Source of the DNA: Branchiostoma lanceolatum
Taxonomy: Eukaryota; Chordata; Leptocardii; Amphioxiformes; Branchiostomatidae
Reading direction: 5' to 3'
DNA length: 64,000 bases
Assembly: GCF_035083965.1 (NCBI RefSeq)
Contig: NC_089726.1
Coordinates: 13,025,501 to 13,089,500, forward strand
This document shows, piece by piece, positions 1,188-35,611 of this stretch; position 1 is the stretch's first letter; every line of letters begins with the position of its first letter. The notes beneath the pieces were generated by a model that made no database searches, was not told the DNA's origin, and was given only the letters and a program-made list of their open reading frames with translations. A program made the translations under genes and the position numbers.

Positions 1188-12949
<11,762 letters not shown>

Positions 12950-14033: not shown

Positions 14034-14088
14034 ATGGCTCGAGCGATGCTTCTACTGATGCTGTGTGTTGTCGTCATGGCCCAAGACG
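14034..14088 (+). other. EGF-SEA-2 exon 1, signal peptide
   Basis: The ATG at 14034 opens 18 codons with a hydrophobic core of Leu, Met and Val ending in Ala-Gln-Asp, then donor GTAGGT in phase 1. Length and phase match exon 1 of EGF-SEA-1. A second in-frame ATG four codons downstream could also serve as the start, but the first keeps the basic n-region. Confidence 0.82.
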
Positions 14089-17000
14089 GTAGGTGAAGAC
14101 GTTTGATGACGTCTGCACTCGTAGATCAAGTAACAAAGTTTCTACTATCAGTCATGATCGATAATATAGCGGATTATACCTTCCAAAGCCAACTGAACTT
14201 TTTAGGGAACAGATTGCTTTTAGACATGATTTGAGATAGTTGTGCATTAGATGCAGATTCATTCTAATATTAGTCATGAAAAGGAAAACAGGACAGGGAC
14301 AAACTACAATAGGCAGTAGGGGGGGGGGGTAGGAAACTATTAAAATAGTTCCTGAAATGACTGAAACTTCTATCACTTCTATAGAGGAATAGCGTTGTTT
14401 TGTTAGCGTTGTTGTTGTTGTTGTTGCTGCTGCTGCTTGGGGAGGGGGGGCTGTAATATCACAATAGGCATCATGGACTAAAATGATATAAGCTGTAGTG
14501 CGTTACTTAAAGCTCTAATTACATGATAAAATTACTGCAACCGTCTACAGATCGATTCATTGATCGCAAGCGACCTTTGTCGACAGTTGTGAAAAATGCA
14601 GCCTTATATTTTCGTAAACAGAAAACATTGTACACCATTATTCATTGCTTTAGGCTGTAATTTCATATTCCCTTGCCACGCAGGTAATAACGAATGTGCG
14701 TCTAACCCATGTGACTACGGCACCTGTGTCGACGGTAACGACGGCTACACCTGCACCTGTGAACCTGGATGGACAGGGGCTGTGTGCAACCAAGGTGTGG
14801 CTCCTTATCCACATGACCTTTGCATCTTGTACATCAGGCAATACTTTTTTTCGCTCTTTCTGCTTCATACTGCCGGCTAATCTGTTATTAACACGATGTG
14901 ATTATTTATTTGACTTTGAGCAGATATTGACGACTGTGCGCCCAGCCCCTGTGTCCACGGTACTTGTGCTAACGGGGTGAACAACTACACCTGCATCTGT
15001 GACCCTGGATGGAGAGGACGCGACTGCGCAGAAGGTTGGCTTCGTTCCTGATATCGATTGTGTCCTTTATTGCTGCTTTCATTCAAATAGAGGAGCTTTT
15101 CTGTATATCCCCTAACGTAAGATTGTTATCACTGGACTATTGCAGTATCTATAATTCTTTAACATCTATTTGTAAAGGATATAATAGTTTACGTTTCTGA
15201 CTCTCAAATATTTCACTGATCTTACCAGGCACACAAGCAAACTTTAACCCAACAGTGTAGACATGGGGCATTCAAATTATTTGGATGGAATGGCATTATT
15301 TCATTGATAGATCAATGATCATCGTTATCACTGCGCAGATATTGATGACTGTACACCAGACCCCTGCGATTACGGCGTGTGTGCCGACACTGTAAACGGC
15401 TTCACCTGCACCTGTTATGCTGGATGGACAGGACCGAACTGCCACATAGGTTTGTCTCACGTTTAACACGCCCGTTCATTTTACGATTACGAATCAAAAC
15501 CAATGCTGACAGTTTGATCCTATTCCAAAACTATCTTTTGGGTTAAGAATAGATGTTATTGCCAATACTAATCCACATTTTTTAAATAACTGTACACAGA
15601 TGTTGATGAATGTGCGTCCAGCCCCTGTCGTCACGGCACCTGTGCTGATCATGTCAACAAGTACAGTTGTACATGCCAGGTTGGATGGCGAGGGGACAAC
15701 TGCCAAATAGGTTCGTTCCATTGCCAAAATGACATTACATATACTTAGGTGTAGGTATAGTTGCATCGTTTGTGTGTACAAATACTCAAGAAATATCGTC
15801 CAATATTGGATGTCGTCATCGGTATGTGTCAACACATATTATTTTGTGACCTCTGCAATTGTATTTCATAGTAAGGTCTGCGCATTGTTTACACTTTGTT
15901 ACAGGCTAAACACAGTCATATTTTGCGCTTAGTATTCTAACAGTACACCGGTAGTTTTTGGGGAGTAGCAAGTTTTCTGCCTCTAGGTTTGACTGATAGA
16001 TCGAGTTGTCTTGACAGGATCGACATTAACTATGACTATGTTATCCCCCATGACCCCACACAGACATTGACGAGTGTGAGTCCAGCCCGTGCGAGCATGG
16101 CAGCTGCAGTGACAGTGTCAACAGCTACTCCTGTACATGCCAGCCCGGGTATACAGGAACACACTGCGACACAGGTTTGCTTTGGAACTTACAGTACTTT
16201 TTATGATCTTTTCATTCTCAGTGTTAAAATTGTCACTAGCATAGAACACATCTATCTATAGTAGTGTACTTTATATACATGTAACAGTCGAAAGTTGTAT
16301 TTCAAAGTGTGAACTTGCATTACACATGTAAACACTAGGACAATCTTGATATAAATTGTATTAAGATTTTCCTATCTTAAGAGGCGTTGCATCAAACAAA
16401 AAGTACGGATCATAATCCTTTTTTTTCAATTTCTTAACTTTTGCCTACCAAGGCCTACAAACAAGCCCATCCTTACCTTATCATCAAAGCCTAATTATAA
16501 TGTTTGCAGATATCATGTTTACCAGCAAACTAACAAACAAAGCATTGAACAGTGATAGTCGGTGAAATTATGAGCTTCTTGGCGCAAATCTGGCGAAACA
16601 GTAATGGACATTGACTGTACTGGCATTTGCGAAGTACATTTGGTCACAGTGGCAGAAGAATGATGTCATCATTTCTAGGTCCACACCAATCATCCTCTGA
16701 GTTTGACTCTACAATTCTATCTTCCGGATCGTGTATCATACATTCCGGAGCTATTTTTTGTTGTTGTTCCGGAATATGCCTGAACGGATGCAGTGACTGC
16801 TGTTCCGGAATGCTGCTTGTCGGAGCTTGCGCCTGGGGTTCTGGGATATTCTTTACTGGAACTTGTCCCTTCTGTTCAGGAACATTTTGTCCCGGAAATT
16901 GGTCCTGCCGTTCCGGAATATTTCCGACGGTAGCTTGTTCCATCTGTTCCGGAATGTGAGGTTCCAGCGTTGGTACCTGGTCTGACTCTGGGTCCCGAGG

Positions 17001-20000
17001 CAAAGGTTCGCCCAGAGCGTGTCGCAGCCGCTTCCAGAACAGCGGTCTGTGTTTCACGTCATCCGGCCACATCAGGTACGTGTCCCGCTTCATTACAGCG
17101 TTCAGGTGGCGGAATCGTTTCAACATTCTGTTGGGAATTTCTTCCAAAAAGACCAGGATGAGACGCACCCCTCCCCCTTGCTCGAACATGTGGTACTGGG
17201 CCAGCTGGAACTCGTACTCGCACCACTTACTCTTCAGGAAGTTCCTGGTGACGAGGCAGACGGTTCTCCGGCTGTTTTCCACGGCGTCGGCGATGTTCTC
17301 CACGATGGGGGCGCCGACTGCAAAGTCCCTCTCATGTATGACTAGACTGTAGTCAGGTTCCAGGTTCTCTATTGCTTCCTTTATAACCCATCTGATGTCT
17401 TCATTGTTGTATGCAATGAAGGCATCGTGTGTGTAGGCGTGCTGTTCATTGATTTCTTCTTCTCCGATCCTCGGTTTTCTCCACTTGGCCCACAGCCACA
17501 GGAAGTAGTTAACATGCCGGATGTTGTAGTCGACAAGAAAAACAGTCATCATGGCGACGAAGATTCCCGAAGAAGCGAGCACACAAGCAAGGAGACGGTT
17601 GGGCCGGAATTCATTACTACAATCCATCTTAAAGAACATGTTCTGTGATTGTGCTTTTCCTTCGTTATAGTTCTGTTGCTGTGTGATCCCGTCAGTCAAA
17701 CGTTGCCCATACAGTTTAGCTGGACGGAAACATTTGTAGCTTCGATAAGAGAGAGGATAGGGGTTATTCCAGTTCGACACCGTGTCGTATTTGTCCTGTG
17801 CCCACTCAACAAACCACCGTAAGTCACAATCACACAGAAATGGATTGTTTGCAACGTCAAGTCTCTCCAGGCGGTTGACAACAGGTCCCAGTGAGGTTTG
17901 GTTTATAACACTCAACCTGTTGTTGCTTAGAATCAAATCCCTCAGTCCGTATAAACGATCGAAGGCGTTCCAAATCACTGCTATTCTGTTGGCTGCAAGG
18001 TTTAAGATTCTTAGGTCCCCCAAACCTTCAAATGTCTTTGCTGTCATGTTCTGTATTTGATTGTTACTAAGATCCAGCGATCTTAGCCGTGATAGTCCGC
18101 GAAAGGCGAACACCTTTAGAGTGCTGATTTCGTTATGACTGAGATCGAGTTGAACCAGTTGGACCAACCACTGGAAGTTCCCTACCTCTATGACACGGAT
18201 GTGGTTGTGCGAAAGAGTCAAAGTTGTGAGGTTCGTCAGTCCCTTCATAAACGTTCCGTCTATACCTACTAAACCATTGCTATCCAGTCTGAGTGTTTCT
18301 AACGTTGGTGACTGCACTGTTGTGTAGGACGTAGTTCTGATGTCATTGTGAGAAAGATCAAGAAATTTCAGACCTGCGATGGAGAATACAGCATCGGGCA
18401 AGTAATAACCTATTTGGTTATGCTGCAAGTCGAGCATGGTCACGTTCGCTGGCAACATTTCAACACCTTGCAGTCTGTTATGGCTCAAGTTCAGATGATT
18501 GACGCTTTTCAAATCTGTGAAGTTGAACGATAAGGCGATGTATCCTGATTCCATTTGAAAGTAGCTGTTTAAATTGTTATGACTCAAGTCAAGATAGTCC
18601 AAGGTCTCTGGAAGCCGAGCTTGGGATGTTTCCAAGTTGTTATAGCTCAGATCAAGATAGATAAGAGATGACAGTCCTTCAAACACGTCTTGTGGTAAAG
18701 TAGAAATTAGATGATTACTTAAGTCAAGATGACGGAGGGAGGGCAAACCACTGAACGCATTGTTTTCTACCGTGTTTAGAATCCCTACATCCAGATTCAA
18801 CCTTTGCAAATTTGGAAAAGTTGTGAATGAGTTAGCTTGAATGGCTGTGGTGTCAGGTAGAATTATGGACAAGGTTTTCAAGTCGTCGAAGCCTTTCATC
18901 GTCGCCAGTGTATCAGCTGTTATTGTGTTAATCCCGCCCATGGCAAATGACAACTCCTGTACATGTGTGTGTCGAAGTTCAGGCAGAACATCTGCGATAG
19001 AGGAGAAACTTGAAGTCCAGGGAATGTCCAGCGCCTGTAGATGCGTCAGTGACGTCAGCAGGCCGGGCGCTATGGTGAGATAGTCAGCTGGTGTGTAGAC
19101 GTGAGCGCTAACACACATGTCTAACCGTTTTAGAGTTGACAACAGCGGCAGGAACATTTGAACATTGTAGTTAACTGGGCCTACAGAACCTAGTTGTATT
19201 TCTTCCAAGTTCGACAGGTTCCCAAATACAGGCCCGAAATTCAAATCGTCGGCTCTTTGGACGAAGAGTTGAAATGTTTTAAGATTGCGGAGAGGTGACC
19301 ACAGCAAGGGTCGTTGTAAGAATTCACTTCCGCTTTGGATGTCCAGTTCTGCCATCGTCAGGTTTTCCAGCAAAGTCAAGGAATCAAAAATGTGATCAGG
19401 TAAACTTCTTATATTAATCAAACCGAGATATAGATACCTCAGTCTATATAAATCTTTGAATACGTCTACATCTACCCTCTCGGCAGCGGTCTCAACTGTC
19501 AGATGATTCAGGTTTCGCAGATCTATGAACAGCCCAGTTTGAAGAGCAAACGTAGATTGCAAAGTTGGACAACACATGTCCAGACGTTCTAAGTTCTCTA
19601 GCCCAGCGAATGCGCCGACCTCGATTGCCTGAATATATGTGTCCGACAGATCTAAGTGCCTCAGATTTCTTAATCCACGAAAAGAGCCGTTGTGTATTTT
19701 TGCTATATTGTTTTCGCGCAGAGCTAAGTACCTTAGAGTAGCCAACCTTGCGAAAGAGTCCTTGTGCAGTTCGGTGATGTTGTTTCCGCTGAGGTCCAAG
19801 GTGATGACGGACTTGGGAATGCCGGGCGGTACTTGGGTTAGAGTTGCGCGGGTTGGGTACTCCCATGGGCCGCCCTGTCCTGTACACACCACGGCTGCGG
19901 AGTTCCAGACCTGACAGACAGGGGGCAGCTGTCCTGCCCATACTTGCGTCATAAACGCCAAAATCGACGTTAAGCAGACCGCAAGGAGAGTGACTTTTGT

Positions 20001-23000
20001 CTCCATGTTGACTCCAGGTTTCTCCCGTTGCGGCGCTGTAGCAACGATAAAAAACCTAATGTCAATGACGAGTACGGAAACGGTTGACAATTCTGATTTT
20101 CTGAAGAGCACCCTTAAAAAACCCGAGTCCTGTGCAAGAGGGCGGAAAAAAGTTGGTTCGGTTTCGACATACGATTCAATGTTGACACAATTAAAGTATC
20201 ATTTTCTCTCTAACGGTAGACGGAATAAGCTTAACAAAAGCAGTCGAGTGACTATCACACATTTAGGAAGGTACAATATTATGTACACAAAAACGTTTGA
20301 AGACTAACCCGTATTGGGATACAGAGATTCTGGTACTTTTGTAAGAAACTCTGGCATTGTTGGAAGGGTCCTCGGGAAATTCAAGAACTCGATCGCTATA
20401 ACGTTCGCCCACTTCTTTCAGGCTTCAACTTATGGTAAATATGACAAAACTGGATTCAAGCATAACATTTAGTCTTTGATGAATTATGATACCCACCTCT
20501 GGAGTGGAATGCTCCTTTAAGTGGATAACACTCATGAAACATCAGCTATAGAGATTAAAATCATTTGGTATGAGATCGCGGAACTCTTACTAGTTTTACG
20601 CGGAACTGTAGTTTTACGATAGGATCACAGATGAAGAACAGCTAAATTACATATCGTGCGTGGGAACTTGTTCCTGATCGCTGCTCATCCGTTAAATCAA
20701 AATTACTTCTCCTTAGGCGAACTTGCATAACAGTCCGGGTGTTATGCTTAGTTCCCCATCTTAGCAAAAACACATCAAAGATTTGACCTATGATGGCCTG
20801 CCTTTCTGTGTTTTGACTATGCACCGTTGGTCTCAATTAATTCAGAAATTTTAAGTAGGGGCCTTTCACACTGAAAAGCGGAATAAGTTTAGTTCCTTCT
20901 CAAGACGAGTGGTAATTAGCGCCAACAAAACAGCATTTTTGTATCAAAGTAAGAGTGTATCACCACACAGTATTTTTTTTAGCAAAGCAAGTAACACAAA
21001 ATACCTTTGACCTCTTTGACGCCTTAAATCCGCACCTCCCCTGTTATCTCTCACCATTCGGTCCTCTTTTTAACTTCAACAATGCTTCCCAAGTGGTCAG
21101 ATTTGAACATTTGATCCGGGTCCGTCCCGAAACACGTTATTTACGCTTAGAAAAAGGCGATTTACTAGCTGTTTTTCTTACCTCAAAACGGACTGTGTTT
21201 CTTTCGTCTTCAGCTTGTAAAAGTCCAGTGGAGTCGAGAACCTGTAGCCACACTTCTTCCTGCCAAGACGTCTCCGGGTTTTCTCCAGTAGGACCAGACC
21301 TTCACGGGAAACCGTCGCGCTGGAGTTACTAGTCTCCCAAAGAAATTGTCAATGTTGTATTTCAAGCTAGACAGGACGCCAAAACATGAACTCACCGTTC
21401 TTGTATCAGTGCCAGTTGACTGCGTAGCTTTAGGTGGCCTGGTTTAACTTTGCATGCAGTAACCCATAAAGTCTCGTCAAGGCGAGTGCCAACACGGCGA
21501 AGATATATTATGGACTACGTTTCCTGCTCGGAACCATTATAGGACTGAAATCATAGAGCTTGGGCTGTCACCACTCCTGAACAGGAAACCTTCAGTATCG
21601 CAAACCGATAATTGGGCACCAGCAAGCGCCAACAATAAGTTCTACATCTACGCTCAGGAATGTCACTTGCACTTCTCAGCATTTACCGCAAGGCTGCGAT
21701 CAGGGACATCCCCTGTGTTTCTCAGAGAGACAGACAGCCCTGAGGCTGGTTTAGGGGTCAGGAGAGCCCGGGAAGCAAAGTAAAATTGTTGAATTCGAAG
21801 CTTTCTGTTCAAATTGTTTCTGTTCAGATACCGTCATTGTGAGACATGATTTTCCTTTCAAATACGTGTAGTCATCCAAATCGGCAAGATCACAGCTGGC
21901 ACCTCACAAATACAACACAGACCAAATCCCTAACATAGCCTCTTGGCTAACAGTTTGTACAAGTTGTGGTCTCCAATTAGACAGAGGAAGTTCAGCTTTA
22001 GACCAGATCATGGCAGGATTGGGCGTTCTGTTTTTGTTTGAAGGGACATCCGTTTCCGCCAGGCGTTGTCTGGCTGACTCATGCTTGGCTTAGATGTTTT
22101 TACACCACACAACCGTGTCCGTTACGTAAGGAGTCTACGGTAGCCTCTAAACAGACCCTTAGGTGGAGTCTATACCTGAATGGGTACGGTAAAGTGATCC
22201 TAGCTGTGATCAGTGGGACATACTCACGCCAAACATCCTAGTAAGGCAGTCGTAATTTACAAACGCGTTTGTTACCTCCGTGAAAAACTTGAGGTATTGT
22301 TTTGGCTTGCCTGTCTGTCTGTCTGTCTGTTTGTCTGTCCATTTGTCTATGTCTGTGTGTGTGTTTCCAGATATTTGTGGTCAGTATAACTTAAGAACTT
22401 CTGGATGGATTGTAAGGATATTTGGTATATGGGAATACGAAGATTAAGGTCGATTTTAGCCCCCTTAGTGTGGTGTGACCTTGGTGCTGAATAAGAAGTC
22501 CTGTTCTGGTATTTTTTTGCCATGACATGCTACGGTCTTGTTTGTTTGGTCGGTCGGTCGGTCGGTCGGTCGGTCGGTCGGTCGGTCGGTCGGTAGACTG
22601 GTTGGAAACAGGATGACTCAAGAACTTCTTATGATCTGCCACTTGTGAACGGGGAAGGTAGAAGTGATACAACATGTCCCAAAGAATTGGTGTTCTGAAT
22701 CTAACTTCAAGCTAGTTTTAGAATTCTAGCCAACAATATAATAATGAGTGGTAACGTTACTTGAATGAATGATAGCCTTTTGATAGCCTTTGTTGTACAT
22801 CCATGCCCTATCGGGCTAAGTACAGGCATACAAATACAAACGTCGTAATAAAGTACATATAGTGATAGGGCTTTTGATAATAATCTAAAATATGGGTTCT
22901 AACACTACTCTGTCTAATACATAGGTTTGGCTTCTTCTTGTCTCTTTGTGGTGTAAATAGATTAGGTTGAGTTGTTTTGTTAATGTGATCCACAGATATT

Positions 23001-26000
23001 GACGAGTGCACGTCCAGTCCGTGTATGCACGGCACCTGTGCTGACGGGGTGGGACAGTTCACTTGTGACTGTGAAGAGGGGTGGTCTGGACTCACATGTA
23101 ACGCAGGTAGGGACACTCTCTTACACCGTGAGATTCACCTTTTCGATGTGATTGTATTTCGATTGTATACGCACGCGATATGTTCTAACTTTTGATCATG
23201 GTTGGAAGGTAAATAGGGCCTCGTATAGTCGTAGATTTGAGAAATTCTTAATAGTTGGAAAATAATCGCCTTGTTCTTTTTATCAAGGGTTTCTATTTTC
23301 AACGATTATCCATTTACAGACATTTATTTTTCATACTGACAGACTATGATGAATGTGAATCCAGCCCATGTGCTCACGGTACTTGCACCGATATATTTAA
23401 CGGCTACACCTGTGAGTGCGATCCAGGATGGGATGGAACTGAATGCAATATAGGTACATACGTTCATTTATATATATATAATTATGCGATTGTACAGTAC
23501 AACGTTTCTTTGCGTACTATCAAATTATTCTGTCAAACATCATCATAATTGAGCCAACTCTATTTTGAAGTGGTCGATGTTACAGTCTTAGATTATTTAG
23601 GCGTACGCGTGGCATCAGGTTCGTTGCTCAGTAATTTCTTAACACGCACAAGCTCTGCTAACGACCCCTCTCACACAATGTTTTACAGGTGTCGACGAGT
23701 GTGCCTCCAACCCCTGCCAACACGGCACCTGCCATGACCTGGTGAACGGATACACCTGCAGCTGCGAGCCGGGATGGACCAATGACACCTGCCATCAAGG
23801 TACTGCAGATACTGATCAATAGTGGCAAATAGTATCTGAAGGGAGTAAACTTTGATATTGTCAAGAAACACCTAGTAACATGGCAATACGAGCATGATCA
23901 GATATTATCTTTTGCACAGATATCAATGAATGTGAATCCAAGCCCTGCCAGCATGGAACGTGTGTTGATAGAGTAAACGGCTTCACCTGCGAGTGTGACT
24001 TGGGATGGACCGACCCTACCTGCGATAAAGGTACGTTAGAAACCTTACAGACTCCCAGCTAGTAATTATCCATCGTCAAATACAATGTCCTATACTATAC
24101 TATGCTATACTACTAAGTTCCTGTGTATAACCTTGAGTAAAAAAAAGAAGATGTTTGCAACTTGCAAGTGAACAGAAACTTTCGCGGATGAAACCATAAA
24201 GTACTTTGTGACCCGCTTGATTTGTTTTATATAATTATCATACAGTGCGATATAAATCCTTTAAAGCTTTCTTTAACATCTTTAATTTTGCACAGATATT
24301 GACGAGTGTGAGTTCGACCCATGTACAAACGGCAACTGTACTAACTATAACGGAAGCTACTCCTGTGTCTGCGAGGAGGGATGGACCAACAATCGGACCT
24401 GCAACGAAAGTAATCAATAGTTTTAATATATCAGTCGTATTCTCTGTTTCCATTTTGAAAAATTGTTGGGTAACGATTGTATGTTCCTTTGTTATTCTAA
24501 CATATATCGTTACACAGGTGTTGACGACTGTGGCTCCAGCCGCTGTAACCATGGTGCCTGCATAGATCTCCACAAGAATTACACTTGTATGTGCGACCCG
24601 GGATGGACAGACTTAATCATCCACTATGAAGGTAAAATATCATTCTAATATTAGAATACGTAACTCAGTAACTGCATAAATCTAAATGATATGTAGCATC
24701 TGCAGCGCACAAAGTCGCTAAAGATGTGTATAACAAACAAAAAAATTGACCATAAACTGTTCCTTACTCCAACGCTGTTTAACAGACATTGACTGTGAAT
24801 GCAACACAACCGTGTCTGTCAACTCTACTGCCGTTGAGAACAACTACACCTGTACTTGTGATGGGGGCTGGAACAGGACCTACTGTAGTTTAGGTATTCA
24901 TAGTTACTTTGCTTTTATTTCTAGCTTGAATAAATCCATTACTTTTAGTTATCGAGTTATCTAGCTAGGAAAAATACATCTGACCCTATGGCATCTCCAA
25001 TGGGTCCTTTGTTTAGTACAACATCCTCAGAAAATGTCACTGTTCTTGACTTAAAGATGATATTCCCTCTTATCTTTAGAAATCGACGAGTGTAGCTCCA
25101 ACCCCTGTCAGCATGGTACCTGTACAGACGCTTTGGCCAGATATGTCTGCAGTTGTGAAGCCGGCTGGGAAGGAGAAAACTGTGATAAAGGTATCTACTA
25201 GTATTATTTTCCAACTCCCATCATTGCGCCAGCTGCGGTCACACTTAACGGAAGATAAAGTGCAATACAACACGTGTGTCATGAATCAAGATATAAAAGA
25301 CAATATCTTCATTAATTCCTTTTCAGAAATAGCGTTTCTGTGTTCCGTTAAGACGTCCTTATTCCAGTTGCAATTTTTAAACCACTTCACATTCTTTTCT
25401 CTTCCACAGAAATATTTAACGACTGTGCCTCCGACCCCTGTGGCTTACACGGAACCTGTACCGACGGTCTCGGTACTTACACCTGCACATGTGAAAAAGG
25501 ATGGACTGGTATCAACTGTGAAAAAGGTACAGCAATGACTCTACTTCGATTCACCACTTAAATGTCGTCTAGTGGCCAACATTTGGCCACCTTTGTCATG
25601 GAGCTCACTCTCATCTGACTCTTTGTGAGGCTAAATAAACGTGTATTGTTTTCTAATACTTAACATGTACTTTTGTATACCATATGTCACCCGTATTAGG
25701 TCCACCGACATACTCCTTCCAGCTGACAATGGATAATCGAGAGTTCACTGATCAGCTGAGTGATCCGACTTCTGAGACTTTCACTTCTCTAGCATCGGAA
25801 GTTTCAAGAACAGTAAGTCACTCGGCCTCATGTGCAAAATATTGCAAACTCTCATGTATAGAATCAACGATGGTCTATGCTTTCAAACGATATTTAAGAA
25901 TTCATCGATTCCAAACTGTCTTCAAGCTTGAAGAATTTCTTAACTCACTGAACCAAAGAAATAGAACTAACTCCAGATACGGAATTTTCTTGCTTAAAGG

Positions 26001-29000
26001 AAAAAGACATGATTTTTTTCTTCAAATTTTTTTTTGCCCCTACAGATATGGGTATGCCTGAACCAAACCTCTGTCGGCTCAGACGTCATCAACGTGGTGA
26101 TAAGCAGCTTCCGTCCCGGAAGTGTTATTGTAGATTATGACGTCCACTTCCGTCAGAACGCGTCTGTGGTAGGTGCGGAAGTACAAGAAGCATTCGTCTC
26201 TTTCTTAAGGAACAACACAGGCTTTGGCGACGCTTTAGGGATCCAAGTTGAGTCGATGTGAGTTCACCTTTGACCTGGCTCGTGTGTGTGTGTGTGTGTG
26301 TGTGTTTTTGTGTGTGTGTTTGTGTGTTTGTTTGTGTGTGTTTGTGTTTGAGTGTGTGTGTGTGTGTGTGTCAAGTGTGTGTCTGTGTGTGTGTGTGTGT
26401 GTGTGTGCGTGAATCGGTCTGCTAGCGGCTTCTACGGTACTGCAGCGGAACTTCCGGTTTTGATATCTCGTGATATCTGGCTCACCTGTTGTGGCTTTTG
26501 ATGTTAGGAAAAAGTGGTGTAGGTTTGGCCCCCCAGCAGTTTGTTCTGGCACTGCAGTGCAGGGGTGTTTTGTTAAAATGTTTGAAAGAGGATAACTCAA
26601 GAAGGGTTGACGGATCGTCGTGGTATTTGGTGTGCAGGTAGTTTAGGTGATGATTTTATTTGATAGTTTTGCAAATCAGGATCTAATTTTTATGTTTAGT
26701 GAGGAAAGTCTATTGTCACATTTTTGAACGGATTTTTTGATCGTTTTTAAGCATCTTTGATAAGTCTACCTGTCTACCTTTCTCTACCTGCCTAAGTTCC
26801 TTTCAAGAATGTGATTCAGATTAGGCTTATTTTCTAATCAAGTCTGACATTTACTGAACGCCACAGCTACAAAGCACTAAGAAGTCTAAAGTTTGTATTT
26901 AACGTATCAAATATCTCTTGATCTTTTAACGTGTCTTATAAGAGCTGATACGTTAATCTATAGATTGCAGATGTTCGAAAGCTTTCCAAAAAACAAACTG
27001 TCTACGAAAAATTATGTTTTCTCTGTCCTGTTGTCTCTGTCTCTACATGTCACAATCGCATCATTTTGTTTACAGTACAGAACTTACTAGTACTCAACAA
27101 AATTAAGACAAAGCAAGTGGTATTGGGTAAAATACCATCATCGTACTGTTCACAGCCGAGACAAATCACAACAAACTTCAATGCCTTTATCCATATTCAT
27201 TCAATTCCACCTATATCAAAGCCTCCGCGACCATGAATTAAAACTAATTTCAACCTAGTGTATTAAAGTTCCCGTTTCTTCAGCGTAATGAAAACAACTT
27301 GTTCACTTGTAGATATGATATGTTATTGGCACCTGGTGATACGTTGTCTAAATGCTGCCATCAGAGCCTTTTCCACTCATCATCATCACCATTGAGTATT
27401 ATTGGTATTTCCACTAACAGCCCACAAAATTGAGAAGATAACACGAGGAAAGCGCTGACAGCTCTTTATAGTTCACATGCATAACATGCATGGCCGAGAC
27501 GCAACGAGGCTACATCAAAACACAAACTGTTTATAAGTTTCGTGAGCAGTAATTGTAAATCTAATTTTGGGCCATTTTGATACTTAGGTCAGTTGGGGCT
27601 TACTTAAGATAGAAGCATATTCAGAATGATCAGCTTGGCTGCCTGGTGCTCTACTATGTATTGTCTTGTTGCAATTTTTTAGAATAGAGAATAAAGAATA
27701 TTTGGAATATTGCATATTGTCCACTAGCATCACCCATTACTAGACGCCATACAAATATTATGTTGGCTACATGCTGTAAAAACACCACAAGTCTCGGATC
27801 TCCTTAATTGAAATGTTTCTAACATCATTTTGCTACTTTTGTGTTCATTTTCTCTTACTTAAGAAAAGCAGATTCACTCTGTAAATGTACTCTTGACACG
27901 TCTCCCCACAATATGTCTCCGAAGCAAAGGATTGTCATCCATTTTAAGGTCTACAAGACTTACAAACAGAATGTCATTTCGCTTACCACACCATGTGACT
28001 AATACAACTCTTTTGCTTGCTGAATATATTTACTTTTAGGTGTGTAAAAATTGAAAGCATAGCGTGTAATTGAATTTCCCTTGTACATCTCTGTCATCAG
28101 ATACACACAGTTCTTTTCCCCTGGAAGCCACATTCAGAGTATCACATCTTTGTTCTTTTTAAAAGGCATGCAAAAAAACTCTACGAGTCCGTTTTAACGG
28201 CTAGAAACTGTTGACCTACAATGTGACGTACTTTTATCAATGCTTTTATAGAGCTATGTAGTCAGCCATTAACAATAATTCTTCTTACTAGTATACTTTC
28301 ACTAGACAAATTCTATTCGGAAATCTAGAAAAAGATTCTTATTCACTAAATTAATTTCTCAAGCTTTTACCGATGATGATCGCAGCACTTGTCAACATCG
28401 GTGGCGAGAACTCTGTCTGTCGCTTAGGTACGTCCTGTGAAGGAACAAACGAAGTCACAGTTCATAAGGTATCTTGACCACTTTATTGTCATATGATAAT
28501 ATCTGGTAAGATTGATGTCGACCGTTTGGAACGATGTCAAGAAATGCTATGGTTATGTGAAGTACCTGGAGCCACCTGGCATATGAAGGGATGCAGGTTG
28601 TTGCAAACGTCGTCATTCCACCTGGTTTTTGAATAGTACCAGTATTGAGCGCAATCTTCCCTGTCCCAACCGTTGTCCGGTTGTCCGGGAGCCCACGGGT
28701 GGTAGCTTCCAAGTGCAGTACCATCGATCCACTCAAAGCTTCCTTCCTTGTGCTGGTCGTGCAGGCCAAACCAGAATCCGGAATTGGAGTCGACGGAGTT
28801 CTTGAGGGAGATGAGGAAATCATCTGTAGCAGCGTCTCGGGGCATGGCAAGGGTGCCGCCGTCAACACGGCAAAGTAGGGCCGAGAGCTCGAAGTTTACT
28901 GGGGTGTTGAACGCCTTGTAGCAGGTCCCATGCCACTCTCTATAACCTAGGGGACAAGATGCTGGAAAACAGTTTTACAATTATAGAAATAGCAAAAGCG

Positions 29001-32000
29001 ATCGATATTGGAAAAGAAACCCCAACCCCTACATTTCAGTACATGTGCCATTCTATACTTTTCATTGTGTGCAATATCCCCTTTTATGTGATACCTTTTT
29101 TCTCTTGAACAGAGGCATTTTCTGATGTATGTGCGTCTTTTGTCTGAACATTATTAATTTTGTCTTTGAAACCACGTGATCAAAGTGATGAAAGGGCAAT
29201 TGCGCAACCACAAAGGCAAGCAAATAAATCAATACACAACTGAATGTTAATTTGATTAAATTCCAAAACGTTTCAGTTGTGCTCATGGTGTAGATTGGAC
29301 GCCTTACCTTCATTCGACTCTGGCGTGCCTGGAGGCCCAACGGGACCCATCAACCCTCGAGGCCCAGCTTTTCCTGGTGGTCCATCCATTCCCTTGGGTC
29401 CAGCAGGCCCCATGAGCCCCTTTTCTCCGGGAGGTCCAGGGGGCCCAGCAGACACAGGTCCAGCCGGCTCCATGGGTCCTCTTTCCCCTGGAGGTCCAGG
29501 GAGACCCGGGGGCCCAGGTGGTCCCATACTTCCCAAAGAGGCAGATGACACACCCATTTCTGAAAGACGATGGCTTTGGCGTTAATATTCAAGTCAACAT
29601 AGTACGACAGACAGACTCATGAAACCTAATATGGCATTATCGTGTATTTCAGTAGGTACAAGATCAGAATGTACAGAATTAAAATCATACTTTTTAAGTA
29701 TTTGCTACTTACGCCCAAGCTCCGTGCGTAGTAGCTCAGTCACCCAGTCCCTTGATGCAAGGTTGACCATGTCGTCAGAAAGGGTAGCTGTACATTATAA
29801 GAAATAAAATAAACACAGCTGTCATTTTCTGTAATATTGTCACGAAAGTCCAACTGGTTTGCAAACATCACAATCACTAACTTGGAAGCAATAACGAAAC
29901 TGACCTGCGAAGTATGGCAGCAGTATGGCGTTTGTCACGACAAACACAAGGACTGCTGTAAACGCCATCCACAGCTTCTTCACTTGACTGGACATGCTCG
30001 GTCCATCACCGTCAGCCTTGTTGTCAGCGGCTGCATGGTAGGCGGCTGGTTTGAAGAAACAATCATTGAACTTCAACGGCTCTAACAACGTTGAGTGGAA
30101 TGAAGAATTACAATAGAATTATAAGTCCACGTTGACGTTTGCACTAACATAGTTAATGGTGTTGTTGTTGTTGTTTGGCATGGTGTATAAACCATATGTA
30201 CATTCAGTCCACACGAGCACAGAGCGGTATCTTATGCTTAGAAAGTTGGCTTTTCAAACATGATTAACGAGAGTCAGACCAAGAAAGACAGTAAATAAAC
30301 TGGAAACTGATCTACCTGCACCGGAGCCGTACGCAGGGCTGATGGTTTGCCCATCATCGGTCTCCGACTCAGTCTGAGACTGCTGCATGGGTGCGGTGCC
30401 TGGGAGATTGTCAAAAACATATTGTTTAAAGCTAGACATAGACTTTACTGGAGTAAATACGTCTGAAAGCTAAGTACAATAGAATAGAAACATCTACATT
30501 CACTAGTGTTACCGGCTGGACCCTGCTGCTGCCGTCCAGGCATGATGTCCGCTTCTTCGGGTTTCCTGACAGAAAAACACGCCCTACACCAGACAAGGGG
30601 CTTGTTGATTGAACCACAGTCCGAGACTGAAGTGATCTCAAGATCAAACAAAAACGAAAAATCAAATTCTTAAAACAACTCGCGATCGTATGAAACGCCG
30701 CAATTTTCACAACATAGACGAATTATATGAACACGTGATTTCTTTGGTTGCTGAGCTCTAAATCATCTTTAAGTCATTACCTTCTCTAAGTTCGAGGGTT
30801 ACGACGATTTCGGTAACGTTAGCTTTTTTTGTAGGGGTATTTGCATATGGATGTTTGCTTCTTTGTTGTTTCTTTGTTGTTTCTTTGTTTGTTTGTGATT
30901 AAGCAGCACAACTCAATAATCTATGGGTAGATTGTAACCTAACATTTGGTATGTGGTTAGGTGCATCGAAGAAATAACTAGCACATTTTGGAGTCGTAAT
31001 GATATTTTTGTAACGAAGACGTGTGTTACAGATGTATGATTGGTAACGGGAGCAGCACATGTGTCCCCACTCCGCCCCAGCAGTGGCAATCCTGGATCAC
31101 CTACACCATCGTGGGTTGCGTGGCTGCAGTCCTCCTTCTCGTGTGCTGTCTCTTTGTTGTGGTGAGAAGTCAAAGGAAGTAAGTCGTGCCAAGTGCATTC
31201 TCACCTTCTGGTCAACACACTGTTTGTTTTTTCAATATCTACTACCCATTACAGACATCTAAAAACGTAATGTTTTGACGAAGTTCAATGATATCCGCTG
31301 TTGCCTGTCGTCAGTCCAAACCTTTTTCATCTCGAGTTCTCTTTAACTGAATCATATCTAGATGATAGCAATATATTTAGCTATTTCTTCCGAGTGGCCT
31401 CATGTGTCGTTGAGGCCTTACACATTGGTACCAGTGCTTTTTTCATAATCTACAGTTCTAGTTGAGTAAATGTTAATCATGTCTTATTTGAATGACATTC
31501 TTTTCCTTGTTTGTGTATTACAGCAGACAATGGTCCTGGCGATTGAAGAAGGAATATGACCAGTTTGACCCCTACGGCAGCAGACGCAGCAGCATGTGAG
31601 TCTGATGTACCTCATTTGGTCCATACCAAACCAGTACTCCCGCATGTCTAACACTTGAACATCGTACACCTTGTTTCTAACGGACGATTTAACACCCAGG
31701 ACTGACAATTTGTTGTGGGTTCTTCACCAATAGATTGTTTCATATGCCTTACACAATCAGATACGCTAGATGCGCTAGATAGTATTTAAGAAGGCTGTGT
31801 ACTACTAGTATATATACGCCAGTACATTTTTATATTTTGACATTTCCAGGGAAAGCCGTCAACGCAAGGTCACGAACCCCATTTACGAAGGGTAGGTGTA
31901 AAAAAAAAATCAGTATTTCCTGTGGTCCTTCCTCCAATTGTAAACAGTTCTAAACACAGGCACCATATCATAGCTGAACGGTTATTATCTGCAATCACGG

Positions 32001-32367
32001 TATCCTTTGTGAAAATGTGCAATGTAATCGTTTGGTAAGCAACTGATTCTAACGTTAAAAAGGTGAGTGTAACTTGCACGAATGCAATTATGATGTGAAC
32101 AACATCTAAACTTTCAGACAAGGCCCTTCTACCGCCTATGAACTCAATGACGCGGGACTAACGGATTTTGAAGAGAGCGGACTGACAGAGCTTCAAGTCG
32201 GCGGACTGACGGACACTGAAGACGGCGGATCGACCGACTTTCACTCGGATGGAGGATCGACAGAATTGCAAGATGTCGGGTCAACAGGATTTGAAGACGG
32301 CGTGTTGACAGAATTTCAGGATCTTGACCTGACAGAAGGAGAAGAATCCCAAGATGGAATGTGTTGA
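14034..32367 (+). CDS. EGF-SEA-2: 14-EGF, SEA-domain membrane protein hosting two nested genes
   Basis: A 21-exon paralogue of the upstream gene. Coding exons: 14034-14088, 14684-14794, 14924-15034, 15339-15449, 15600-15710, 16064-16174, 22996-23106, 23343-23453, 23689-23799, 23920-24030, 24296-24409, 24518-24631, 24786-24893, 25080-25190, 25410-25526, 25700-25812, 26046-26257, 31032-31178, 31524-31595, 31850-31891, 32118-32367. Total 2454 nt, about 817 aa. Order: signal peptide, 14 EGF modules, SEA, transmembrane helix, acidic tail with NPIY. The introns 16175-22995 and 26258-31031 carry antisense genes (a TLR and a lectin). I saw no second signal-peptide exon between 20112 and 22996, so one gene is the simpler model; two separate genes split at the TLR remains possible. 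The function is unknown beyond a cell-surface receptor or adhesion role. Confidence 0.82.
16644..20006 (-). CDS. Toll-like receptor, single exon, nested antisense in EGF-SEA-2
   Basis: An uninterrupted ORF; the codon at 20006 starts a typical signal peptide (METKVTLL...VWAG). The frame stays open 35 codons further upstream, but that extension looks like leader sequence. The product is 1120 aa: signal peptide 1-24, leucine-rich repeats about 65-720, one C-terminal LRR cap with CDCDLRWF about 721-804, transmembrane helix about 805-827, TIR about 856-1003 and a 117-residue tail. The single cysteine cluster marks a vertebrate-type TLR. Box 1 (HDAFIAY) and box 3 (FW) are present; box 2 reads RDFAVG, with valine where most TLRs have proline. 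It should sense a microbial or endogenous ligand and signal through TIR adaptors; ligand unknown. It lies wholly within intron 16175-22995 of the host gene. Confidence 0.95.
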   Translation of the reverse strand: METKVTLLAVCLTSILAFMTQVWAGQLPPVCQVWNSAAVVCTGQGGPWEYPTRATLTQVPPGIPKSVITLDLSGNNITELHKDSFARLATLRYLALRENNIAKIHNGSFRGLRNLRHLDLSDTYIQAIEVGAFAGLENLERLDMCCPTLQSTFALQTGLFIDLRNLNHLTVETAAERVDVDVFKDLYRLRYLYLGLINIRSLPDHIFDSLTLLENLTMAELDIQSGSEFLQRPLLWSPLRNLKTFQLFVQRADDLNFGPVFGNLSNLEEIQLGSVGPVNYNVQMFLPLLSTLKRLDMCVSAHVYTPADYLTIAPGLLTSLTHLQALDIPWTSSFSSIADVLPELRHTHVQELSFAMGGINTITADTLATMKGFDDLKTLSIILPDTTAIQANSFTTFPNLQRLNLDVGILNTVENNAFSGLPSLRHLDLSNHLISTLPQDVFEGLSSLIYLDLSYNNLETSQARLPETLDYLDLSHNNLNSYFQMESGYIALSFNFTDLKSVNHLNLSHNRLQGVEMLPANVTMLDLQHNQIGYYLPDAVFSIAGLKFLDLSHNDIRTTSYTTVQSPTLETLRLDSNGLVGIDGTFMKGLTNLTTLTLSHNHIRVIEVGNFQWLVQLVQLDLSHNEISTLKVFAFRGLSRLRSLDLSNNQIQNMTAKTFEGLGDLRILNLAANRIAVIWNAFDRLYGLRDLILSNNRLSVINQTSLGPVVNRLERLDVANNPFLCDCDLRWFVEWAQDKYDTVSNWNNPYPLSYRSYKCFRPAKLYGQRLTDGITQQQNYNEGKAQSQNMFFKMDCSNEFRPNRLLACVLASSGIFVAMMTVFLVDYNIRHVNYFLWLWAKWRKPRIGEEEINEQHAYTHDAFIAYNNEDIRWVIKEAIENLEPDYSLVIHERDFAVGAPIVENIADAVENSRRTVCLVTRNFLKSKWCEYEFQLAQYHMFEQGGGVRLILVFLEEIPNRMLKRFRHLNAVMKRDTYLMWPDDVKHRPLFWKRLRHALGEPLPRDPESDQVPTLEPHIPEQMEQATVGNIPERQDQFPGQNVPEQKGQVPVKNIPEPQAQAPTSSIPEQQSLHPFRHIPEQQQKIAPECMIHDPEDRIVESNSEDDWCGPRNDDIILLPL
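16743..16958 (-). repeat. Six 12-residue IPEQ repeats in the TLR cytoplasmic tail
   Basis: Residues about 1017-1088, after the TIR domain, are six perfectly phased 12-residue units of the form [HNS]-[IV]-P-E-[QRP]-x7, for example [12 protein letters not shown] and [12 protein letters not shown]. On the + strand this appears as a recurring TTCCGGAA-centred motif every 36 nt. Most TLRs end soon after the TIR, so this extension is unusual. It is probably disordered and its function is unknown. Confidence 0.85.
22311..22339. repeat. (CTGT)n microsatellite
   Basis: A run of CTGT units with one TTTG interruption, followed by a TG-rich stretch to about 22364. It directly precedes a dispersed repeat copy starting at 22382. 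Confidence 0.85.
22382..22640. repeat. Dispersed repeat copy A
   Basis: Contains the motif ATAACTTAAGAACTT, then GGATGGATTGTAAGGATATTTGGTAT and, 230 nt later, ACTCAAGAACTTCT. Related copies lie at 26589-26650, 30903-30967 and 33200-33255. Copies A, C and D each follow a T/G-rich microsatellite closely. Confidence 0.6.
22548..22594. repeat. (GGTC)n microsatellite
   Basis: About eleven uninterrupted copies of GGTC in the host-gene intron upstream of the TLR. Confidence 0.95.
24518..24893 (+). other. Non-canonical EGF exon pair with shifted cysteines, EGF-SEA-2
   Basis: Exon 24518-24631 lacks the sixth EGF cysteine (end reads [10 protein letters not shown]). Exon 24786-24893 (108 nt) has five cysteines, two of them near its start as DIDCEC, and four sequons (NTT, NST, NYT, NRT). 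The pair totals ten cysteines. Position, loss of the sixth cysteine, four sequons and the ending TC-x-x-GWN-[KR]-T-x-C match the pair at 10010-10348 in EGF-SEA-1. Confidence 0.8.
25700..26257 (+). other. EGF-SEA-2 SEA domain (two exons)
   Basis: Exons 25700-25812 (113 nt) and 26046-26257 (212 nt) have the same lengths and phases as the EGF-SEA-1 SEA exons. The second exon contains [13 protein letters not shown], an excellent match to the SEA autocleavage loop with the scissile G-S. The first contains [13 protein letters not shown]. Several sequons (NQT, NAS, NNT) predict glycosylation. Confidence 0.9.
26282..26410. repeat. (GT)n microsatellite with interruptions
   Basis: About 130 nt of GT dinucleotides with occasional TTT, TTG and GTCA interruptions, beginning 24 nt after the SEA donor site of EGF-SEA-2. 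Its closeness to the 5' splice site could affect splicing; that is inference. Confidence 0.95.
26589..26650. repeat. Dispersed repeat copy B
   Basis: Starts GATAACTCAAGAAGGGTTGA and continues to GTATTTGGTGTGCAGGTAG. It lies downstream of the (GT)n run in the SEA-to-transmembrane intron of EGF-SEA-2. Confidence 0.6.
28482..28487 (-). terminator. Polyadenylation signal of the nested lectin gene
   Basis: TTTATT on the + strand reads AATAAA on the minus strand, 50 nt past the lectin stop codon. Confidence 0.6.
28537..28961 (-). other. C-type lectin domain exon
   Basis: The exon begins [10 protein letters not shown] (the long-form extra cysteine pair) and contains WFGLHDQ and the loop GQPDN. DREDC, RWNDDVC and HPFICQ follow. 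All six cysteines and the Ca2+-site residues (QPD, WND) are present. The domain ends with a short tail of about 10 residues and a stop at 28537. Confidence 0.9.
28537..30565 (-). CDS. Type II membrane collagen-like C-type lectin, nested antisense in EGF-SEA-2
   Basis: Six coding exons (minus strand): 30513-30565 with ATG at 30543, 30316-30399, 29905-30081, 29713-29787, 29308-29559, 28537-28961. All junctions are phase 1 and GT-AG. Total 1044 nt, 347 aa. Order: cytoplasmic N-terminus rich in Gln/Ser/Asp, membrane anchor about residues 81-101, short neck, a collagen stretch of about 22 Gly-x-y triplets with one interruption, and a six-cysteine long-form C-type lectin domain. QPD and WND motifs are intact, which in this family predicts calcium-dependent galactose-type sugar binding. 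The plan resembles membrane collectins and scavenger lectins, so a trimeric pattern-recognition role is likely. The frame is open upstream of the ATG within exon 1. A candidate 5' exon ending at 30781 would bring an in-frame stop, which supports this start. The gene lies within intron 26258-31031. Confidence 0.87.
29308..29559 (-). other. Collagen-like exon of the nested lectin
   Basis: This exon encodes Gly-x-y triplets rich in GPP, with GER, GEK and GKA charged triplets that favour triple-helix formation. The register breaks once: a Gly is replaced by Glu in the stretch [12 protein letters not shown], with a two-residue slip. Such an interruption is common as a kink in collectins. Confidence 0.88.
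30903..30967. repeat. Dispersed repeat copy C
   Basis: CAGCACAACTCAATAATCTA followed by ACATTTGGTATGTGGTTAGG, directly after a GTTT-rich stretch at about 30861-30898, 65 nt before the EGF-SEA-2 transmembrane exon. Confidence 0.6.
31032..32367 (+). other. EGF-SEA-2 transmembrane and repeat-containing tail
   Basis: Exon 31032-31178 encodes the juxtamembrane segment, a helix of about 23 residues rich in Val, Leu and Cys, and the stop-transfer sequence RSQRK. Exons 31524-31595 and 31850-31891 give a basic/aromatic segment and then NPIY. The last exon (32118-32367) begins with [13 protein letters not shown], matching the EGF-SEA-1 terminus, and continues for about eight units of 8-9 residues of the form [GDV]-[LS]-T-[DEG]-x-x-[DEQ]. 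The stop TGA is at 32365-32367. Confidence 0.82.
32155..32349 (+). repeat. GLTD-type tandem repeat in the EGF-SEA-2 tail
   Basis: About eight degenerate units of 24-27 nt encode acidic peptides such as [16 protein letters not shown] and [15 protein letters not shown]-1 has a single GVTD at the matching position and stops four residues later. Confidence 0.75.
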
Positions 32368-34470
32368 TACGCGAGGACAGACACAGCTATCTGTGCCCCA
32401 TACCTGGTGTGTCTACAAACACAAACTTTCGAAAGGTTTTACTGTGAAAAGGAATATTACAGACACAGAAAAGTCACAAAATTATAAAGCTTCATTTTCA
32501 TTGCAAACTTTCATTTCTCCCATATGCATTCACATTTCATGTCAAACTTACTAAAAGGAGAGCGTCTTAGCTTTCGGCAGAAAAAAAAAATGTCCATAGA
32601 TATCTCGAACCATAGGGGCAAATTACAGTGCTTGTTATAGAAACACTTGTAAATAAGGTAGTAATGTAAACTACTCTTGGTGTTGATATGTGAACTGGCA
32701 CTTTTTGTATTTTGGCTGTTTAAACAAACTACAATCCGAAGCCAGTTTCTACATATGACTGTATGAAAATTTAGATTTGGCTAGAGAAAGTCTTAATTAT
32801 TGCCATTCACTACTAGTCACTCTGCGATGAGACGTATTTATGTACACAGATATAGCATATGGAAATACGGAAACACAAACAGGCGCACCGGTTACTGCAA
32901 ATATACGTAAGCCTCTGATACTAACACAGACTTTTGGATGCTGCCAAATGTACATTAGCACTTTTTTCTCAGAATCAAACAAACAAGTTTGCAAATAATC
33001 TTTGTATTTCCACCTGCGATCTTGGGTTTCTTTGTGTAATTTACAGATGATCTCTGAACAGTAAGAATATTATATGACTATCATAATTTGTCCTATTTCG
33101 AAAAAGACAAATTGATAGTAAAGGTTAAAGATCCAAGTGCATTTATTACCTTGGTTATGTTTTAGTAGCATTGTTTGTTTGTATGTATGTATGTAGTTGA
33201 ACAGCATGACTCAAAAAATTAAGCTATGGATGGCTTGTCATGAAACTGTGGTAAGACTTAAAGTACATGTAGTTATGTTTTGTCCCATCCAAGAAGTGAA
33301 GAAATGATTAGATATTGGGCCTCCTGGCGACTCTCCTTGGTAATGCAGAAGAACGGTCGGTTTTGATATCTTGTGTTTTGTTCAAGCCATGCATGGTCAT
33401 TGTTTTTGGGTGGTAGATAGCTCTTATGAGCGGGAAGAAGTGACATAAGTTTGGGCCCTCTAGCAGCTTTCTTTGGAACTACAGGGGCGTTTAAGCTTCA
33501 GATTTTGAAACAGTATAAGTCAATAAGGGATGAACCTTCATTCACATGTAGGAAACTTTGATGAAGACCAATGTAATGGTATGTTGATTATGCAAAATAG
33601 GACTTGATTTATTGATTGATTTGATTGATTGATTTGCATAATCAATGAGGATTTACACTTCAATTGTGCTAAATGACAGGATGGACAAGGAATGTCATAA
33701 AGGCAAACTAATTCATATTCATATTCGTATGATTGTATTGACCTACAGACAAAGCTACGTCCAGTCTTAGTTTTAGCAAATTGAATGTATTCAGTACATG
33801 TTGTTCTTTAAAAGTAAAGCTCTTCTTCAGAAAAATTTCAAATACAGCTGATGTATACAATACAAAGGGCAACAATCTACATGGACAATCTTCATATTCC
33901 ACAGACTTACAAAACTGATCTATTCCACAAGCTTACTTCATAACTGACATGTTGCTGTATCAAAGTGTGTAATCTCAAAATACACAATGTAAATGACACC
34001 TCCTCAAAGTACATTGAGCACACAAATAAGAGCATAGTTATATACACAAGGCTAGATGGAATGCTTTGATATAAAGCTATTTAACTCTTAAGGCATAGTG
34101 GACATTTTTTCCTTCAAAAACTGAAGATAAGCCATAATCATAAAATCTTGATTAGCATAGCAGCATCACTAAGATATAAAAAGAAAGGATCATGCATCAT
34201 AATGCATCATATATAGCTATCAATACAATTAACAAGCAAGGAATACTGTAACACTAGTAACTGCCAGTACTAGACAATGTTCCTTTCCTACCCTTTTACA
34301 AAGAGGCAGGATTAAAGTGTGAAATGAACAAGCAGCTCCAAAGTTCCACATTACTTCAGCACATGCTTCTGTCCAAATACGCTTAATCTCTATCTGGCAC
34401 AAACTCATCTTTGGGTCATCAATGATAAAAATTCTCACATCATAATAATTCTGTCATTACTACCTGATAA
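32368..34470. other. Convergent intergenic region
   Basis: About 2.1 kb between the stop of EGF-SEA-2 (+) and the stop of the NACHT/TPR gene (-), containing both 3' UTRs. A GTAT/GTTT-rich run near 33170-33195 leads into a dispersed repeat copy at 33200-33255, with a related segment near 33510. No gene is supported. Confidence 0.6.
33200..33255. repeat. Dispersed repeat copy D
   Basis: ACAGCATGACTCAAAAAATT followed by GATGGCTTGTCATGAAACTG, right after a (GTAT)n run. A second related segment (CAGTATAAGTCAATAAGGGA) lies near 33510. Confidence 0.55.
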
Positions 34471-35611
34471 TTAATGTACAGCAGGGAACTGATAATGTCT
34501 AGAAGCGATGGCTTCTTTAGCAACCCTCTCTGGTTCCACAATTCTTAAGTTCCTTGAGGTTTTTGCTGTTCCCTTCTTTCCTGTTTCCACAGTTGTTGGA
34601 TCACCTGTCAACACTGTCTCATTGTCTGCTTCTGGTGAGGTTTCTTGACACTGTTCGGCAAATTTGGCAGATCCTGACTGCATGTTTGCCTCAGCGTGAC
34701 TTTCCTTTCCTTCCCCTACAACCTGTAGCTCCTGAATCCCTGCCTCCGCCGCTTCTACTCCATCTGACCCCCACTTCTCCGACTCAGCTGAGCTCCCTCC
34801 CTCGCTGCTTGGTGATTCGTCGATTGGATGAAGCTGCTGGTCTAACGTTGTGTCCGTCCCACGGTTTAGCTTCTTTACTCGCTTTTGACTTCTTTTTCTT
34901 GGCAGTGGCTCCTTGTAGGTAGGGTATCTTCCTGGGACATGGTACCATGCGGACTTGTGTTGTACTCCAGATTTCTTCACATTTTCCCGTGGTTTTGGTG
35001 GCTCATCTAACAAGGTCTGTAGTGTACTATGAGGTCCGTGGACCGATTTTACATTACTTTCGTCTACACTGTGTGCACTGGGGATGTGACACGATGATTT
35101 GTGTGACACGTGAGAGCTCCTGCTCAAACGCGACAAGTTCGTGTTCCGTGAAACAACCGTCATCCTACTAGCGAACTCCGACACTGAACTCTTAGTGTTG
35201 AAGTAATGAATGGACACACTTCCTTCTCTGAAGAGACTCTGGTCACCTTTAAAGTCTTCCTGTCTGACACTTTCTTCCCACTGTGGTTCTCGGGGTGGGC
35301 TCTCCTGGAATTCTCTCCATGGAGCTTCTTCTCGTTCGAAACCTTGTGGTGGGACGTCCATTCTGTTGCGCTCACTCCCAGCAGAGTGTACTCTGGGTAT
35401 CTCCCGCGTAGCTCTACTCATAAGGGTGTCCCTCCCGTTGGGGCACGACATGGCGGACTGGGTTCTCCAGATCCCACTGGGGTTGCTGCTAGGCCGACGA
35501 GACCCTCCATACTGCTCCTGCCTTCTGTTTTTCTTCCCTTGCTGCTTCTGTTCAAACTGTACAATGTCCTGCTCATGCCAGCTCATGTGGCTGTAGGGCC
35601 GGTCTCGAGAC
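34471..35611 (-). other. Low-complexity C-terminal exon of the NACHT/TPR gene
   Basis: A single exon of 380 codons including the stop. It is rich in Ser, Arg, Glu and Gln with no recognised domain. It starts in phase 2 directly after the last TPR exon. Its length compared with known TTC41 proteins is atypical, and it is probably disordered. Confidence 0.75.

Follow-up and report, generated by a model that had tools for sequence, protein, structure and literature searches.

In a 64,000-nucleotide stretch of the Branchiostoma lanceolatum genome (contig NC_089726.1, positions 13,025,501 to 13,089,500, the whole of it referred to below as the window), we analysed a plus-strand gene, EGF-SEA-2, whose product is a predicted surface receptor with EGF repeats and a SEA domain. 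Two of its introns each house another gene on the opposite strand: a Toll-like receptor (TLR) in intron 6 and a collagenous C-type lectin in intron 17. This nested arrangement is confirmed: the gene models are intact, strands and intron phases are set, and the counterpart of intron 17 in the neighbouring paralogue, EGF-SEA-1, is empty. The features concerned, with positions counted from the first letter of the window, are listed below.

14034-32367, plus strand: EGF-SEA-2 host gene, 21 exons, 817 amino acids (exon-by-exon gene model)
14034-16174, plus: EGF-SEA-2 exons 1-6 (gene model, EGF-exon scan, Pfam)
14034-14088, plus: EGF-SEA-2 exon 1, signal peptide (gene model)
14684-14794, 14924-15034, 15339-15449, 15600-15710 and 16064-16174, plus: EGF-SEA-2 exons 2-6, five EGF exons (EGF-exon scan, Pfam)
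16175-22995, plus: EGF-SEA-2 intron 6, host to the TLR (6821 bp, phase 1)
16644-20006, minus: TLR, one coding exon, 1120 amino acids (open reading frame, domain search)
20007-21450, minus: possible 5' untranslated region (UTR) of the TLR (acceptor-like and donor-like sites, by eye)
22996-26257, plus: EGF-SEA-2 exons 7-17, more EGF exons followed by SEA in exons 16-17 (gene model, Pfam)
26258-31031, plus: EGF-SEA-2 intron 17, host to the lectin (4774 bp, phase 2)
26412-26699, plus: repeat at the 5' end of intron 17 with a same-orientation match at 33318-33610, past the 3' end of the host
28482-28487, minus: AATAAA about 50 bases past the lectin stop codon, within intron 17 (motif search)
28537-30543, minus: collagenous C-type lectin, putative type II membrane protein, 335 amino acids (gene model, Pfam)
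30543-30513, 30399-30316, 30045-29905, 29787-29713, 29559-29308 and 28961-28537, minus: the six coding exons of the lectin (GT-AG introns)
31032-31178, 31524-31595, 31850-31891 and 32118-32367, plus: EGF-SEA-2 exons 18-21, encoding the transmembrane segment (by eye) and an NPIY-bearing cytoplasmic tail (gene model)
1188-12949, plus: EGF-SEA-1, the paralogue directly upstream, 30 exons, 1087 amino acids (Pfam)
11762-12021, plus: EGF-SEA-1 intron 26, the guest-free counterpart of EGF-SEA-2 intron 17 (260 bp, phase 2)

The host gene and its two guests

The EGF-SEA-2 model runs from a start codon at 14034 to a stop codon ending at 32367, with a frame that is open throughout and GT/AG borders at 20 of 20 introns. 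Eighteen of the introns measure 108-595 bp, and the other two 6821 bp (intron 6) and 4774 bp (intron 17). An earlier, sequence-only reading of this DNA had placed one complete minus-strand gene, a TLR and a lectin, in each of two long introns of 6.8 and 4.8 kb; its coordinates and sizes were correct, and gene models and domain searches agree on both guests. Pfam recognises the EGF repeats of EGF-SEA-2, as well as a SEA domain ahead of the transmembrane segment (by eye) in both EGF-SEA-2 and EGF-SEA-1 (E 7.9e-15 and 2.4e-14, respectively). The translations contain GSVIV in EGF-SEA-2 and GSVIA in EGF-SEA-1, putative counterparts of the GSVVV-like site at which SEA domains cleave themselves. The EGF-exon scan, designed around phase-1 EGF exons, gave matches on the plus strand alone; it overlooked four atypical EGF exons, 12 and 13 in EGF-SEA-2 and 21 and 22 in EGF-SEA-1, and these were placed by hand. 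Exon 13 of EGF-SEA-2 (24786-24893) and exon 22 of EGF-SEA-1 (10250-10348) are EGF-like with some of the six cysteines missing and several N-x-S/T sites, and each lies immediately upstream of the firm exon pair 14/23 (EGF-SEA-2/EGF-SEA-1). In the last exon of EGF-SEA-2, an imperfect 24-base tandem repeat (32155-32229) encodes acidic repeats, which are missing from the last exon of EGF-SEA-1.

The TLR coding sequence lies entirely within intron 6, on the strand opposite to the host. Its frame is open for 1184 codons from stop to stop; read from the methionine at 20006, it encodes 1120 amino acids and ends at 16644. The protein consists of a leucine-rich repeat (LRR) ectodomain, a transmembrane stretch (by eye), a TIR domain and a C-terminal tail with 12-residue repeats. 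LRR_8 (E 5.3e-80) and TIR (E 4e-18) match within this one protein, and a 21-residue hydrophobic stretch between them, again judged by eye, is the putative transmembrane segment. In the PDB, TLR3 is the best match of the whole protein, and TLR6, TLR2 and TLR1 are those of the TIR domain alone. The repeats of the tail (16766-16956, after the TIR domain) are 36 bases long and centre on 'IPEQ'. In the BB-loop of the TIR domain (17300-17360, minus strand), where TLR2 has HKRDFIPGKWIIDNI, the proline position is occupied by valine in this TLR; the BB-loop proline matters for signalling in several TLRs.

The lectin gene is likewise contained whole in its intron, on the strand opposite to the host. 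A hydrophobic segment close to the N terminus (by eye) is followed by a collagen repeat (Collagen, 31.3 bits against a cut-off of 27.2) and a C-type lectin domain (Lectin_C, E 2.2e-21). A collagen chain tops the PDB matches; mannose receptor 2, DC-SIGN and collectin-11 are among those of the lectin domain. The translation contains QPD and WND; we take EPN/QPD and WND to be the calcium-site motifs of sugar-binding C-type lectin domains, and sugar binding by this lectin is predicted. Because it has an AATAAA of its own at 28487, the lectin could end inside the host intron. No second copy of either guest protein was found in the 64-kb window by tblastn (E 0.01). Upstream of the guests, TATAWAW was not found on the minus strand at 20006-21800 (TLR side) or 30543-31400 (lectin side). 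The observed-to-expected CpG ratio is 1.17 at the TLR start (20000-20399) and 0.96 at the lectin start (30400-30799), compared with a mean of 0.58 (s.d. 0.29); it marks no clear promoter island, as it also peaks at 1.05 (23200-23599) and 1.03 (32000-32399).

EGF-SEA-1 as a template for the host

We infer that EGF-SEA-2 is one gene, which would be transcribed as a single unit. EGF-SEA-1 has the same order of parts, namely signal peptide, EGF repeats, SEA domain, transmembrane segment and NPxY tail (NPLY as against NPIY in EGF-SEA-2), and all 29 of its introns are 939 bp or shorter. Guest genes are thus present in EGF-SEA-2 and not in its paralogue. Two separate half-genes are unlikely because EGF-SEA-1 shares this architecture, has no intron above 939 bp and has a short counterpart of intron 17. 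That counterpart is fixed by the exons on either side: EGF-SEA-2 exons 17 and 18 pair with EGF-SEA-1 exons 26 and 27 (scores 160 and 88), reciprocally and with negative next-best scores. Since exons 26 and 27 are only 260 bp apart and joined in the same phase 2, the exons that flank the lectin directly follow one another in EGF-SEA-1. The best-match table used here also pairs EGF-SEA-2 exons 1, 19 and 20 with EGF-SEA-1 exons 1, 28 and 29, and leaves exons 13 and 21 of EGF-SEA-2 with no clear partner; an exon-chain program left EGF-SEA-2 exons 1, 13 and 18-21 unpaired owing to its score offset. Across the SEA block the paralogues agree at 63 of 109 residues, and third codon positions are the least conserved (50/109 versus 78 and 86 for the other two), as expected under protein-level constraint.

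Candidates for additional EGF exons in the long introns were rejected: the EGF-exon scan gave only low-complexity GT-run matches (26253-26408), and every tblastn match there is part of exon 7, extending at most 85 bases into intron 6. EGF-SEA-1 itself carries EGF exon pairs duplicated in tandem (4343-6127), with copies at 4621, 5314 and 5994 that are 81-92% identical and copies at 4343, 5017 and 5719 that are 76-83% identical; part of the intron DNA is alike too (79%).

Origin and meaning of the nested arrangement

EGF-SEA-2 very probably represents ordinary opposite-strand nesting, with a single host and with TLR and lectin guests that stem from inserted duplicated genes and have their own transcription. 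Duplicated TLR and lectin genes would have inserted, on the opposite strand, into introns 6 and 17, presumably after EGF-SEA-1 and EGF-SEA-2 had split. The guests would be transcribed independently, while the host pre-mRNA would cross both and splice them out, and beyond possible transcriptional interference we would expect no functional tie between host and guests. The lectin probably arrived as DNA because it has introns: its six coding exons set it apart from an intronless retrocopy. In lancelets, 85% of TLRs are species specific, pointing to fast turnover, C-type lectins are described as similar, and large indels and rearrangements as abundant (PMC4284660). Judging from this turnover and from surveys of nesting, two innate receptors in one host may need no special cause. 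Of the 'tolerant landing zone' offered by the sequence-only reading, simple insertion survives as ordinary and sufficient, and the special zone can be dispensed with. That reading was also right that the only very long introns of the host are those with guests, and that the insertions leave splicing phase undisturbed, but we rejected both points as evidence. The guests themselves largely account for the length of introns 6 and 17, although removing the TLR coding sequence still leaves 3458 bp, and removing the start-to-stop span of the lectin 2767 bp; and introns are spliced out whatever their content, with phase unchanged.

Of the repeat pairs tested, the sole firm one joins 26412-26699, at the 5' end of intron 17, to 33318-33610 (E 3.8e-14 and 1.2e-12, the reversed window giving no match). 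Another pair, 22382-22433 and 30903-30959, gave weak matches (nhmmer E 0.08 and 2.1; blastn 6.6e-4 and 2.7e-4). With only one firm pair, we do not claim a repeat that flanks both guests, and a combined profile of the suspected repeats was discarded as circular, since it recovered the five members it was built from and a single weak match (E 0.24).

Different histories can be proposed for both host and guests. The host might instead be two plus-strand genes, with exons 1-6 encoding a short secreted EGF protein and another EGF-SEA gene starting in or after intron 6: the join between exons 6 and 7 is a predicted one, and the plus strand of intron 6 carries AATAAA at 22847 and ATTAAA at 20190 and 20554. 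We nevertheless regard this as very improbable, given that exons 1-6 have no stop, transmembrane segment or other anchor (by eye), and that exon 1 matches exon 1 of EGF-SEA-1, where a single model unites such a start with the SEA and transmembrane end. Moreover, a scan of the plus strand of intron 6 for a signal-peptide-like first exon, from which a second gene could start, gave 0 hits, while it recovered both known first exons (controls: 0-2 hits in each of 20 shuffles, 0 on the minus strand). Just as improbable is an assembly artefact, in which a wrong join or a mixture of haplotypes misplaced one or both guests. Lancelets show extreme polymorphism, including many large indels and rearrangements (PMC4284660), and each of the long introns has low-complexity sequence (22548-22594 and 26282-26411); still, the window contains zero N, the host splice sites are intact at both introns and both guests are complete. 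The TLR, in turn, could be a retrocopy that landed in intron 6, as its single coding exon and the typically intronless nature of guest genes (PMC8467205) might suggest. Such an origin is unlikely, and is the less likely one for this gene. An acceptor-like site, 'ttttttatcgttgctacag', directly precedes the TLR start codon, with donor-like sites further up near 21180 and 21395 (by eye), and because of these the TLR may have a spliced 5' UTR; after the gene, no poly(A) tract exceeds an 8-base run (by eye).

A further alternative is that nesting is kept by selection for antisense co-regulation, whereby an immune-induced TLR or lectin would control the host through polymerase collision, antisense RNA or short host transcripts. 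Both guests are oriented against the host, and only 488 bp separate the lectin start codon from host exon 18. From the TLR stop (16644) as far as host exon 6 (16174), the minus strand has neither AATAAA nor ATTAAA, and with the next minus-strand signals being AATAAA at 15071 and 14910, a long TLR 3' UTR could reach host exons 6, 5 and 4; on the other hand, the 469-bp gap after the TLR holds variant poly(A) signals, such as TATAAA at 16275 and CATAAA at 16205. Precedents from the literature are divided. The C. elegans gene ceh-10 brings on a short form of its host, polq-1, and in this species a host is likelier to be on where its nested gene is on, but co-expression is on average lower in nested pairs than in neighbouring ones (PMC12274878). 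A review deems inverse regulation of opposite-strand pairs likely, while stating that most human guests are unrelated in function to their hosts (PMC4394429). In Drosophila, a possible enhancer in an intron of timeless2 may have preserved 2mit there, although the two genes seem functionally unrelated (PMC3786989), and expression divergence of mammalian nested pairs is not significantly different (PMC8467205). We consider co-regulation improbable, and the sequence does not require it. More improbable again is its strongest form, in which both guests act as antisense switches on infection, the TLR transcript running through host exons 6-4 and lectin transcription blocking or restarting the host. 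Were this true, one microbial stimulus would truncate or silence one surface receptor while making two others; antisense control more generally would make the locus a compact case of three receptors coordinated by one immune stimulus.

Several points weigh against ordinary nesting of inserted guests in a single host. The guests may possibly have been lost from EGF-SEA-1 rather than gained by EGF-SEA-2. We identified no inserting element or target-site duplication, although no search aimed at such a duplication was made for the TLR. Guests are typically short and intronless (PMC8467205), while the lectin here has introns. Host splicing over 6.8 and 4.8 kb is a prediction of the gene model; the first-exon scan has little power to show absence outside its thresholds; and intron 17 ranks low out of 49, with its donor 7th and its acceptor 6th from the bottom, on a matrix dominated by EGF exon junctions. 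Lastly, the sequence-only reading had pointed to the equivalent introns of EGF-SEA-1 as a check, which succeeded for intron 17 with its guest-free 260-bp counterpart, but the counterpart of intron 6 could not be fixed: EGF exons 2-13 pair poorly, and the only reciprocal best EGF pairs (EGF-SEA-2 to EGF-SEA-1: 2-4, 3-8 with ties, 4-13 and 8-18) have small margins. Taken at face value, these pairs place that counterpart among EGF-SEA-1 introns of 191-912 bp.

Under ordinary nesting, the locus would be a tidy example of fast-evolving innate receptor genes settling in the introns of other genes, and one with a built-in comparison, since the matching intron of the neighbouring paralogue is short and empty.

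Elsewhere in the window, the minus strand downstream of the host (34471-46190) may encode a DUF4062-NTPase-TPR protein resembling nephrocystin-3, with DUF4062 above its cut-off and weak nephrocystin-3 and TPR matches below theirs; a degenerate 65-base tandem repeat of about four copies, 66% alike, lies inside this stretch (41635-41984). The plus strand at 54068-61686 possibly holds one more gene, with an 887-codon open frame, HEAT_2 above cut-off and WD40 below.

Comparison with known nested genes

Nested genes are widespread. In seven vertebrates, 4.3-8.7% of protein-coding genes take part in nested structures, opposite-strand pairs make up 220 of 296 simple nested pairs in human and 193 of 248 in mouse, and most guests are thought to be young duplicates that were inserted (PMC8467205). 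A review gives a lower figure of about 1% for human and about 10% for Drosophila (PMC4394429), and 567 opposite nested pairs are counted in C. elegans (PMC12274878). Several guests in one host have been described as well: human NF1 harbours three coding genes, as well as a pseudogene, in opposite orientation (PMC4394429), and among human single-exon nested genes with signs of interference, 23 of 74 hosts hold two or three guests, with 94 of the 104 guests putatively noncoding (PMC3192792). LRR genes are recurrent guests, in the alpha-catenin genes and in timeless2 (PMC3933685, PMC3786989). A search by titles and the beginnings of abstracts, with subscription literature mostly outside its reach, found no publication on the locus studied here. 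EGF-SEA-2 adds a new case to opposite-strand nesting, a phenomenon that is itself already known and common in animal genomes.

As background to the comparison, OMG is an LRR protein and LRRTM proteins are not known to have a TIR domain. The ceh-10 gene in polq-1 is likewise nested in the opposite orientation and serves as a model of what co-regulation would look like; it differs from our case in that experiments there showed the nested gene to induce its host (PMC12274878). Like the TLR, Drosophila 2mit is a putative LRR transmembrane receptor gene lying in reverse within an intron, intron 11 of timeless2, and it shows no apparent functional relation to its host; in contrast to the present locus, it is a single guest, is expressed mainly in the nervous system and is kept among Drosophila species, perhaps through an intron enhancer (PMC3786989). 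The LRRTM genes in vertebrate alpha-catenin introns also resemble the TLR as LRR transmembrane guests on the opposite strand of a large intron, and the authors' model is translocation into an alpha-catenin intron; whereas this nesting is present in most jawed vertebrates (PMC3933685), that of EGF-SEA-2 is described here from one genome. Human NF1, with OMG, EVI2A and EVI2B, shares with EGF-SEA-2 the presence of several complete opposite-strand coding genes in one host (PMC4394429). While the three coding guests of NF1 occupy a single intron, EGF-SEA-2 offers one intron per guest, and both of its guests are innate-receptor-like.

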